Shown here: piece after piece, positions 14,089-63,574 of the stretch | Position numbering within the stretch: position 1 is the stretch's first letter | Layout of the letters: every line of letters begins with the position of its first letter | Origin: Paenibacillus lutimineralis | GTDB taxonomy: Bacteria; Bacillota; Bacilli; Paenibacillales; Paenibacillaceae | Reading direction: 5' to 3' | Assembly: GCF_003991425.1 (NCBI RefSeq) | Contig: NZ_CP034346.1 | Span: forward strand, 3,695,501 to 3,759,500 | DNA: 64,000 bases | The notes under the pieces: generated by a model | Databases searched by the model: none | What the model was told of the DNA's origin: nothing | What the model saw: the letters and a program-made list of their open reading frames with translations, nothing else | Translations under genes and position numbers: made by a program

Positions 14089-14275
14089 TCTAACGAAACG
14101 TGGTATCGCTATTTGCACCAAAAAAGCCTACTAAAAACTCTAACGAAACAGGGTATCGTTATTTGGCCAAATTGGCGACTTTAAGCCCGCATTTAACCCG
14201 AATAGCGATATGTAGTTTCGTTAGAATTTATTTACCTCAAAATGTAGGGCAATAGCGTTATGTAGTTTCGTTAGA
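14089..14275. repeat. Four-unit palindromic repeat element, copy 1
   Basis: Two forward units of the pattern TCTAACGAAAC, three bases, GTATCG-N-TATTT (14089-14114 and 14139-14164) are followed by two reverse-complement units (14201-14225 and 14251-14275). Starts of same-direction units are exactly 50 bases apart, and the spacers are also related (both forward spacers carry A-runs then GCCT). The whole can fold into one long interrupted stem. Two more copies lie at 62113-62332 and 63244-63462. Confidence 0.85.
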
Positions 14276-61855: not shown

Positions 61856-62059
61856 TTCTCTTTCCCCACTTATCAATATATTTATTTAAATATGTATTCT
61901 ACCAGATGCCACCTATTTCCTCCTGCCATAAAACAAAAGGACTAATCTAAAAGTCACTGCCAAGTTGATCTGTCGCACCCTATTGAGATATATCATAGCA
62001 AAAGTTGCAAAACTCATAATAGCGAGTTACAATTATGTAAATTGGCCATAAGGTAGATG

Positions 62060-62093
62060 CCGCTTCGATATTGATGATCGAGGCGGTTTTTTT
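62060..62093 (+). terminator. Hairpin with T-run, copy 1
   Basis: CCGCTTCGAT pairs with ATCGAGGCGG (62060-62069 with 62077-62086, one wobble), followed by seven Ts. The preceding TTGGCCATAAGGTAGATG resembles the bases before the second copy at 62521. No plus-strand gene ends here, so it may be a duplicated leader or terminator element. Confidence 0.55.
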
Positions 62094-62112
62094 GTCTTTT
62101 AGATCTGTAGCT

Positions 62113-62332
62113 GAACAACAGGTGTGGCATAAGCCTCTCCCTATTCTCTAACGAAACTACGTATCGTTATTTAAGCAAAAAAAGGCCTCACAAAATTCTA
62201 ACGAAACTGGGTATCGCTATTTAGTGAAAAAGACAGGATTACTCCTCATTTTCGCTCAAATAACGATATGGTGTTTCGTTAGATTTGAAAAGGCATCAAT
62301 TTTGCCTAAATAGCGTGTCACAGTTTCGTTAG
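62113..62332. repeat. Four-unit palindromic repeat element, copy 2 (upstream flank)
   Basis: After GAACAACAGGTGTGGCA (62113-62129) come two forward units (62147-62172, 62197-62222) and two reverse units (62258-62283, 62308-62332). Spacing of like units is again 50 bases. The spacer AAGCAAAAAAAGGCCTCACA and on to 62196 is identical in copy 3. The element is in the same orientation as copy 3, offset by about 1130 bases, with the nuclease-like gene between. Confidence 0.9.
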
Positions 62333-62520
62333 CGGGGTTGTGGCGACTAATGTTGCCAAGTTTTGTTCAATTAGGTTCTTGGAGCTCAATGGCAACTTAT
62401 TCTTAGTGACGGCGCTCCGGTTGCACTAGTGGCATTGCAGTCAACCAACGACACTATCTAAATAGTTGTCAAATTCTAGGATGGAGGTTAAACTTATCCT
62501 AATGTGGTCGTAAAGCATAC

Positions 62521-62556
62521 GCCGCTTCGGTACTTATGTATCGAGGCGGCTTTTTT
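62521..62556 (+). terminator. Hairpin with T-run, copy 2, just before the nuclease-like gene
   Basis: GCCGCTTCGGTA pairs with TATCGAGGCGGC (62521-62532 with 62539-62550, wobbles), followed by six Ts. It lies 34 bases before the TTG start of the next gene, so transcription from upstream would be reduced. Between 62333 and 62520 no gene is seen. Confidence 0.6.
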
Positions 62557-62589
62557 GTTATTAAAATTTCAAATCGGTGGTGAAGCAGA

Positions 62590-63240
62590 TTGTCAACATT
62601 CGAGCAGATATATGAGGAATGGCTGGAGAAAAATATTGCTCAGGAAGAAAATCAAAGAAGACGTGAATTATTAGTAAAAGGACTGGGACATGGAACAATT
62701 GAATTTCTACGCACCATTTGGTATCCCGCCGTTCAACATTTCGATCACTTATATCCTGAATGGGAAGTACGCGATTTTCATAACGGGTATCGTTACATCG
62801 ATCTTGCCTATCTTCCTGGAACAATGAAAGGTGCCATCGAAATTCAAGGCTACGGCCCCCATGCTAGGGATCTTGACGTTAGACGGTTTAAGGACCTTTG
62901 CTGGCGGCATAGCTTGTTAGCACTGGATCATTGGATCATTTTGCCGATTGCTTACCTTTCAATTAAAGATGAGCCGCAGCGATGTCAACAGCTTATCCTA
63001 TCATTCATTGGCAGGTTTATGGCTGTTGATGCGCCGCCCGAGCTAGATTATCTTGAAGCGGAAACCGTACGTTTTGCACTACGACAGTTCCATTCTTTTA
63101 GTCCGGCAGAGCTTGCAAATCACCTGAGCATTTCAGACCAATACGCACGGCGTATTTTACATAAGCTGGTATCTGCGAATCATTTGGAGGTAGCCACCGG
63201 AAGTAAGAGATATCGCAAATACCGTCTAAGAAACCTATGA
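62590..63240 (+). CDS. PD-(D/E)XK-like nuclease with C-terminal winged helix, bracketed by repeats
   Basis: A TTG after GGTGG gives 216 residues. The middle resembles the Vsr/DUF559-type PD-(D/E)XK fold: Glu38 (TIEFLRTIW), Asp71 (YRYIDLAYLP), Glu84-x-Gln86 (AIEIQGYGPHARD, with Gln in the Lys position), His91, Asp94 and R99-F100 with Arg106 in the following helix, then the strand WIILPIAYLSI. From about residue 165 a winged helix follows (SPAELANHLSISDQYARRIL and HKLVSANHL, then a basic KRYRKYRL end). Nuclease activity is not proven, and a transcription regulator is the alternative. It is bracketed by repeat copies 2 and 3. Confidence 0.6.
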   Translation: MSTFEQIYEEWLEKNIAQEENQRRRELLVKGLGHGTIEFLRTIWYPAVQHFDHLYPEWEVRDFHNGYRYIDLAYLPGTMKGAIEIQGYGPHARDLDVRRFKDLCWRHSLLALDHWIILPIAYLSIKDEPQRCQQLILSFIGRFMAVDAPPELDYLEAETVRFALRQFHSFSPAELANHLSISDQYARRILHKLVSANHLEVATGSKRYRKYRLRNL

Positions 63241-63243
63241 GCC

Positions 63244-63462
63244 GAACAACAGGTGTGGCAAATACTCACCTTATTCTCTAACGAAACTACATATCGTTAT
63301 TTAAGCAAAAAAAGGCCTCACAAAATTCTAACGAAACTGGGTATCGCTATTTAGTGAAAAAGACAGGATTACTCCCCATTTTCGACCAAATAGCGATATG
63401 GTGTTTCGTTAGAACTCTCGAGGCCTCAAATTTACCTAAATAGCGTGTCACAGTTTCGTTAG
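63244..63462. repeat. Four-unit palindromic repeat element, copy 3 (downstream flank)
   Basis: GAACAACAGGTGTGGCA (63244-63260) starts four bases after the stop codon of the nuclease-like gene. Forward units are 63277-63302 and 63327-63352; reverse units 63388-63413 and 63438-63462. It is nearly identical to copy 2. From 63463 to 63574 nothing is recognised. Confidence 0.9.
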
Positions 63463-63574
63463 CGGGAGGTGTCCGGTGGCATAACGCCGCGATCCGGCCT
63501 TACCCGCAAGCAGCCAAGCATTTCCGCTGAGTGTGACTCATGAGCCGCTGCAGAAGAGCTTGCAAAATGCTCAA

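Follow-up and report, generated by a model that had tools for sequence, protein, structure and literature searches.

The 64,000 nucleotides of Paenibacillus lutimineralis analyzed here (the whole stretch, referred to below as the window) contain a gene for a predicted PD-(D/E)XK endonuclease together with copies of a short repeat that is dispersed through the genome, and the findings as a whole are on balance best explained by a two-part system, comprising a nuclease that would be kept by the host and a genome-wide population of intergenic elements that would be its cognate partner. Each element in this scheme would be about 185 bp long and would consist of four units in the order ++--, spaced at about 50/60/50. 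We also consider it likely that Bacillales independently evolved the logic of REP sequences and their RAYT enzymes with an unrelated enzyme: self-cognate nucleases, often several per genome, with private four-unit populations that co-evolve with the recognition helix (Arg184 with G, Gln184 with A or C) and do not cross within one chromosome. The enzyme, the architecture of the element, and the expected chemistry all differ from those of REP/RAYT; it is the logic that is the same.

The gene lies between two of the elements, and a third copy is found elsewhere in the window. The features are as follows (window coordinates).

14090..14274, no strand: third element, a dispersed copy within the window (unit-pattern matches)
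62038..62129, plus strand: left part of duplicated copy 1, a terminator-like hairpin and then the post-stop sequence of copy 2, the gene between them being absent (repeats and alignment)
62148..62332, no strand: element 1, four units ++-- (direct repeats and unit-pattern matches)
62148..62172, plus strand: element 1, unit 1 (unit-pattern match)
62198..62222, plus strand: element 1, unit 2 (unit-pattern match)
62258..62282, minus strand: element 1, unit 3 (unit-pattern match)
62308..62332, minus strand: element 1, unit 4 (unit-pattern match)
62500..62567, plus strand: terminator-like hairpin, copy 2, just 5' of the gene (repeats and alignment)
62590..63240, plus strand: gene, 216 amino acids, TTG start, stop included (ORF list, models, fold matches, homologs)
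62590..63027, plus strand: predicted N-terminal PD-(D/E)XK nuclease domain, residues 1-146, with E57, E59, D71, E84, and H91 invariant in 26 aligned rows
63037..63237, plus strand: predicted C-terminal winged helix, about residues 150-216 (model, fold matches, co-variation), with the predicted recognition helix at residues 183-195 and the wing between strands 199-203 and 210-213
63139-63141, plus strand: codon of Q184
63278..63462, no strand: element 2, four units ++--, directly 3' of the gene, with plus units starting at 63278 and 63328 and minus units at 63388 and 63438

The first-pass annotation described two near-identical elements in the same orientation, offset by about 1130 bases and enclosing one gene, and the direct repeats bear this out, 62135-62336 and 63265-63466 being 92% identical across 202 nt at an offset of 1130. 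An extra left flank of 21 nt is common to both repeats (62109-62129 and 63240-63260, 95% identity), and only with the duplicated left flank does the element reach the length of about 220 bases originally given; its proper length is 185 bp. Over the longer range, 62038-62104 is similar to 62500-62567, the terminator-like hairpin, and 62109-62336 is similar to 63240-63466. The stretch found after the gene's stop in copy 2 comes, in copy 1, nearly immediately after the hairpin. The bracket is best read as an old tandem duplication of hairpin, gene, and element with subsequent loss of the first gene copy, which would explain why elements stand on both sides. Since elements also flank the gene on both sides in genome G030, the bracketed arrangement is probably older than that split. 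Both terminator-like hairpins have T runs, one standing before element 1 and the other directly before the gene; the latter could be an attenuator.

The two forward and two reverse units noted at first sight are indeed present, but the unit is 25 rather than 26 nt long, and the supposedly exact 50-base period is interrupted in the middle, the unit starts being spaced 50/60/50. The description of the repeats as palindromic is accurate for the four-unit element, which is strongly palindromic and folded strongly in 7 of 7 cases tested (z from -3.3 to -9.0), but a unit on its own is no more than imperfectly palindromic, with a mean of 5.3 paired positions versus 4.7 after shuffling (384 units). 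The window contains 12 unit matches with up to three mismatches, versus 0.04 expected, a number that 0 of 100 dinucleotide shuffles reached; four of the 12 make up the third element. The whole genome (G000) contains 278 units with up to two mismatches, versus 1 for the reversed pattern, which at four units each corresponds to roughly 70 dispersed elements. Among 49 canonical elements drawn from 1.68 Mb of three species, the consensus ends CTAACGAAAC...GTTTCGTTAG and conservation stops abruptly outside it; no conserved tag, GTAG or CGTC, lies beyond the consensus ends of these 49. None of the 49 overlaps an open reading frame, versus 4750 of 6000 random windows (ORFs of at least 200 amino acids, overlap above 20%). 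A search of the window against Rfam gave no match at gathering thresholds. A second repeat population in G000 resembles the unit of a distant paralog, L064 (59 matches, control 9). Unit arrays unlike the ++-- element, with a 51-base period and a single orientation, were observed at G267:C1:2234600-2234879 and G098:C36:10792-10867.

The product of the window gene is predicted to combine a Vsr/DUF559-type PD-(D/E)XK nuclease domain with a winged helix, as had been proposed from the letters alone. Models and fold matches place it in the Vsr/DUF559/EDxHD branch of PD-(D/E)XK nucleases; that named nuclease families are missing from the fold tables was not counted as evidence. Residues E57, E59, D71, E84, and H91, which include the Asp71 and Glu84 of the core first recognized, are invariant in 26 members with identities down to 28% in a sequence alignment, and the Lys of the classical motif is replaced by Gln, His, or Asp in 23 of these 26. 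The gene is under purifying selection, with dN/dS values of 0.08 and 0.11 against two orthologs. Searches of the window protein against Pfam, NCBIfam, PADLOC, and PHROGs gave weak matches only, nearly all to winged-helix parts, and a PDB sequence search with it returned mostly winged-helix proteins at weak E-values; NCBIfam gave no specific match for 79 members of the family. Two degraded homologs, with split frames or an internal stop, occur in G000 at G000:C1:5841522-5842107 and G000:C1:4505849-4506451.

Computation shows the pairing of this gene with a four-unit element to be general in Paenibacillaceae and several other Bacillales. A pattern-free search required only that four units resemble one another and stand in ++-- order with spacings of 49-52/58-62/49-52; its score threshold was 80, and an element was counted as beside the gene within 600 bp. 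With duplicates included, 99 of 123 loci have such an element downstream and 23 of 130 have one upstream. None of 123 mononucleotide shuffles yielded an element, the best of them scoring 71, and among 68 distant regions there was one. With identical genes removed, 96 of 112 distinct homologs adjoin a four-unit element, mostly downstream, and in a further gene set 50 of 54 do so, a count in which the element of L327, probably a false G+C-rich match, was kept. A pattern-guided score, applied to an overlapping set of loci, found a downstream element in 73 of 120 loci, 0 of 120 shuffled sequences, and 1 of 68 distant regions. Homologs are repeatedly flanked by such elements, a point that the first-pass annotation had proposed to check, but two-sided bracketing like that in the window is the exception. 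Of the 112 genes, 16 lack an element. Four of these (L085, L120, L074, and L130) have a contig end no more than about 260 bp away, and two others (L118 and L060) fall just short of the threshold of 80, each with a score of 78. The same four-unit geometry, in quite different unit letters, recurs at the distant paralogs L057, L058, L059, L064, and L069. Unit letters supply the stop codon of the gene at L034, L061, L084, and L128, where the reading frame runs into unit 1 of the downstream element and ends there.

The unit letters differ between gene lineages, and between paralogs of one genome, and they follow the gene. Distances between proteins and distances between their units are correlated (Spearman 0.52, n = 96), the largest value in 2000 permutations being 0.22. 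The unit distances are 0.20-0.58 for 13 listed pairs of paralogs from the same genome and 0.01-0.15 for close orthologs from elsewhere (protein distance up to 0.14). L062 is a paralog of the window gene in G000, and the two are 0.43 apart in protein and 0.24 in unit; compared with their respective orthologs in G031, their unit distances are 0.05 and 0.08. For L064 and L051, paralogs that have no close relative in the set, the best-match unit distances are 0.50 and 0.37. Dispersal of cognate units was examined in eight genomes, and in the cases tested it is the unit adjoining the gene that is dispersed in the genome concerned. The unit CGGACATNTNTTCCNYTATT has 352 matches in Rossellomorea marisflavi (L155), 151 in Salibacterium aidingense (L156), and 80 in Aquibacillus koreensis (L094), with only 6 in Pontibacillus (L150) and 0 or 1 in G000, G031, and the genomes of L111 and L114. 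The unit CGGANNCTNATTCCGYTATT has 63 matches in Virgibacillus litoralis (L111), 9 or 10 each in the L114, L156, and L094 genomes, and 0 or 1 in G000, G031, and the L150 genome; its 65 matches in the L155 genome are, among the matches listed, the other unit with one mismatch.

Among the columns of the protein alignment, residue 184 ranks first for association with the unit letters. It stands second in the recognition helix of the winged-helix domain, predicted at residues 183-195, and the base in question is base 3 of the unit, the first base after NCG. In the first set, with a readable register in 83 of 96 loci, Arg184 goes with G in 58 of 58 cases and Gln184 with A in 13 of 16 or C in 3 of 16; the 13 unreadable loci, at least five of which encode Arg184 (L064, L069, L097, L114, and L138), stand outside these counts. 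In further loci, read after the prediction had been noted and with a readable register in 41 of 44 genes, Arg184 goes with G in 27 of 27 and Gln184 with A in 2 of 2. For readable units in both sets together, the counts are 85 of 85 for Arg184 with G and 18 of 18 for Gln184 with A or C, figures in which shared ancestry remains, as the further loci are related to the first set (L161-L188 were fetched, unexamined, before the prediction). Other residues at 184 obey no clear rule, Asn occurring with G in 10 cases and A in 1 and His with G in 2 and A in 1. Arg-G and Gln-A are textbook contacts. Position 13 of the unit, which is the mirror position within the opposite half-site, likewise has residue 184 as its top-ranked column. 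Position 5 has residue 188 and position 0 has wing residue 208, and the columns ranked highest for positions 4 and 7 lie outside the recognition helix. This pattern is broadly what would be expected if a dimer read both halves of the palindrome.

On a tree built without these columns, the base switches three times and residue 184 four times, and all differing pairs agree in direction. An independent-contrast sign test has two pairs on well-supported branches and four on all branches and cannot reach 0.05; these pairs being too few, the prediction was tested on the further loci instead. One of the two further Gln184 proteins, L176, looks like an additional independent switch, since in its closest relatives residue 184 is Asn or His and the unit carries G. 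Considered jointly, the pairing of gene and element, the unit letters that follow the gene, and the match of residue 184 to base 3 make binding of the protein to its own repeats very probable.

The same observations make it highly improbable that the association is due to chance or is passive, with the gene lying beside repeats that a RAYT or some other transposase has moved. Such repeats are common in the intergenic DNA of these genomes and some Y1_Tnp match occurs in 20 of 39 genomes of the genus, but the three genomes richest in the unit (G000, G030, and G031) have no match to Y1_Tnp (PF01797), so that a RAYT is not the agent there, and G038 has 20 Y1_Tnp matches and two units. A passive association would also have to accommodate the difference between 99 of 123 downstream regions and 1 of 68 far controls, the lineage-specific co-variation, a residue-base match that holds in unseen loci, and the fact that no neighbor gene is common to more than 15 of 80 loci. 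The early remark that the layout recalls REP sequences and RAYTs while the protein belongs to a different family is consistent with these results and with the predicted PD-(D/E)XK and winged-helix domains. Its companion suggestion was a transcription regulator caught between repeats. Insofar as this implies an accident, the finding that unit letters co-vary with the protein contradicts it; a regulator that binds the repeats purposely is not contradicted and is taken up below.

Repeat number, which the first-pass annotation had proposed to compare with presence of the gene, does track it, with exceptions. Over 295 genomes, the median number of units is 33 in the 157 with a close homolog, 2 in the 87 with only a distant one, and 1 in the 51 with none; 10 units or more are present in 109 of 157, 19 of 87, and 10 of 51 of these genomes, respectively. 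The Fisher p value for the association, 3e-17, treats related genomes as independent and so overstates the case. In 26 of the 157 genomes with a close homolog, the searched pattern has at most two matches. Nine of the 10 genomes that are unit rich (10 units or more) and gene-less belong to one genus, and a search for gene remnants in the 10, run without a positive control, found none. The nine genomes of this genus, g7 (G045, G137, G165, G172, G178, G208, G226, G258, and G262), have 13-35 units and no detected gene; their unit populations are candidate relics left after gene loss. The greater number of repeats where the gene is present speaks against a nuclease that resolves or trims cruciforms extruded by the palindromes and keeps the harm from repeats in check instead of spreading the repeats. 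This is an improbable reading on a second count as well, because a structure-specific enzyme needs no sequence-specific read-out by a winged helix.

Comparisons among genomes point to element turnover that is real but mostly old. In 44 of 63 element/genome comparisons among three species the element is at the same place, so that most copies are old. No clean empty site with a target duplication was seen in the 11 that were aligned out of 19 element-less sites, where parts of units were kept or alignment was impossible, and no target duplication was obvious in the flanks of 49 elements, the orthologous sites having diverged. In G031:C10, positions 162296-163080 of the joined stretch hold four complete elements at a 200-bp period where two relatives have one, and positions 565009-566280 hold five elements at about 270 bp; these tandem runs point to local amplification. 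Unit counts differ strongly among close relatives, at 278, 195, and 631.

It is conceivable, although we regard it as rather unlikely, that the protein binds the elements purposely as a regulator or chromosome organizer, its nuclease fold having been kept for another role, and that the elements spread in another way or by replication slippage. All 49 elements examined are intergenic, the element folds strongly, and element positions are mostly common to the species, as might be expected of such a role; moreover, Vsr-like folds with other roles exist, and one of these, FASTKD4, is a fold match of the window protein. Set against this are the five residues named above, from E57 to H91, invariant in 26 members down to 28% identity, and the unlike copy numbers of close relatives, with tandem growth in one of them. 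In the two-part reading, which we prefer, it is the nuclease that would spread the elements, an agency that we infer from the linkage, the specificity, and the conserved residues. The C-terminal winged helix would recognize the half-sites of the imperfectly palindromic 25-bp unit, dimers of the protein would bind each unit, and several dimers may bridge an element. The nuclease would then cut or nick at the element, which might be copied, amplified, or maintained in trans, as RAYT enzymes serve REPINs, by other chemistry.

The closest parallel is with the REPtron, the pairing of REP/REPIN sequences with RAYT/TnpA-REP. The definitions given in two sources (PMC8049555, PMC8266576) describe dispersed intergenic inverted palindromes and cognate repeats beside a host-kept gene, the enzyme tied to REP-like repeats being an HUH-type RAYT. 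Measured against those definitions, the window system is alike in its dispersed intergenic palindromes in inverted order, imperfect stems, and tandem forms, in a host-kept gene with its cognate repeats adjoining, and in the presence of more repeats where the gene is present. It differs in that its enzyme is a predicted PD-(D/E)XK nuclease with a winged helix rather than a Y1 HUH transposase, in that its element has four units at about 50/60/50 where a REPIN has one inverted pair, in the lack of a GTAG tag at the ends, in that several genes per genome are common while the RAYT is mostly single copy, and in its occurrence in Bacillales.

Among the other closest known systems is the homing endonuclease I-Bth0305I, whose catalytic domain (PDB 3r3p) belongs to the EDxHD/Vsr-like group; in contrast to it, the window gene has no intron or intein visible beside it, shows, as far as seen, no self-copying into empty sites, and would take its read-out from the winged helix. 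DUF559 (PF04480) and NGO0050 (PDB 3hrl) are likewise close, although the window protein has no PF04480 match, and we know of no repeat partner of DUF559. TnsA of Tn7 (PDB 1f1z) differs in that the window gene has no conserved partner or transposase gene within 3 kb (80 loci). MITEs are moved by the transposase that a related insertion sequence encodes, while the gene linked to the window elements is a predicted nuclease. In being short and without coding capacity these elements resemble bacterial MITEs and bcr1 of Bacillus cereus, the latter as described in PMC3733652. We found no description of this nuclease-repeat pairing in the open-access literature. REP-like repeats are widespread among bacterial dispersed repeats, and if the two-part reading is true, a second, unrelated enzyme in the same partnership would make host-kept repeat populations a general outcome rather than the quirk of one transposase family and would provide an independent system for asking what repeat populations do for the host. 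The residue-to-base match offers an experimental handle: with one residue changed, the preferred repeat should change.

Of the 40 genomes of the genus, 31 have homologs, as do 244 of the 295 in the family; a single genome has up to 11, and some homologs are broken. At the class level, 61 of 250 genomes have some match and, outside the family, 12 have one at E < 1e-40; the weaker class-level matches, among those listed, cover the winged-helix part. At least 551 relatives were confirmed, those named including members of Virgibacillus, Oceanobacillus, Evansella, Rossellomorea, and Cohnella; the best 80 of them were kept, a sample therefore biased toward close relatives. A phage origin was considered and rejected, as 87 viral stretches matched a peptide pattern and none encoded a relative. 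The gene occupies the same place in three species. Within 3 kb of the gene, no neighbor is conserved across the 80 loci, and the largest neighbor cluster, common to 15 of them, looks like ABC transporters.
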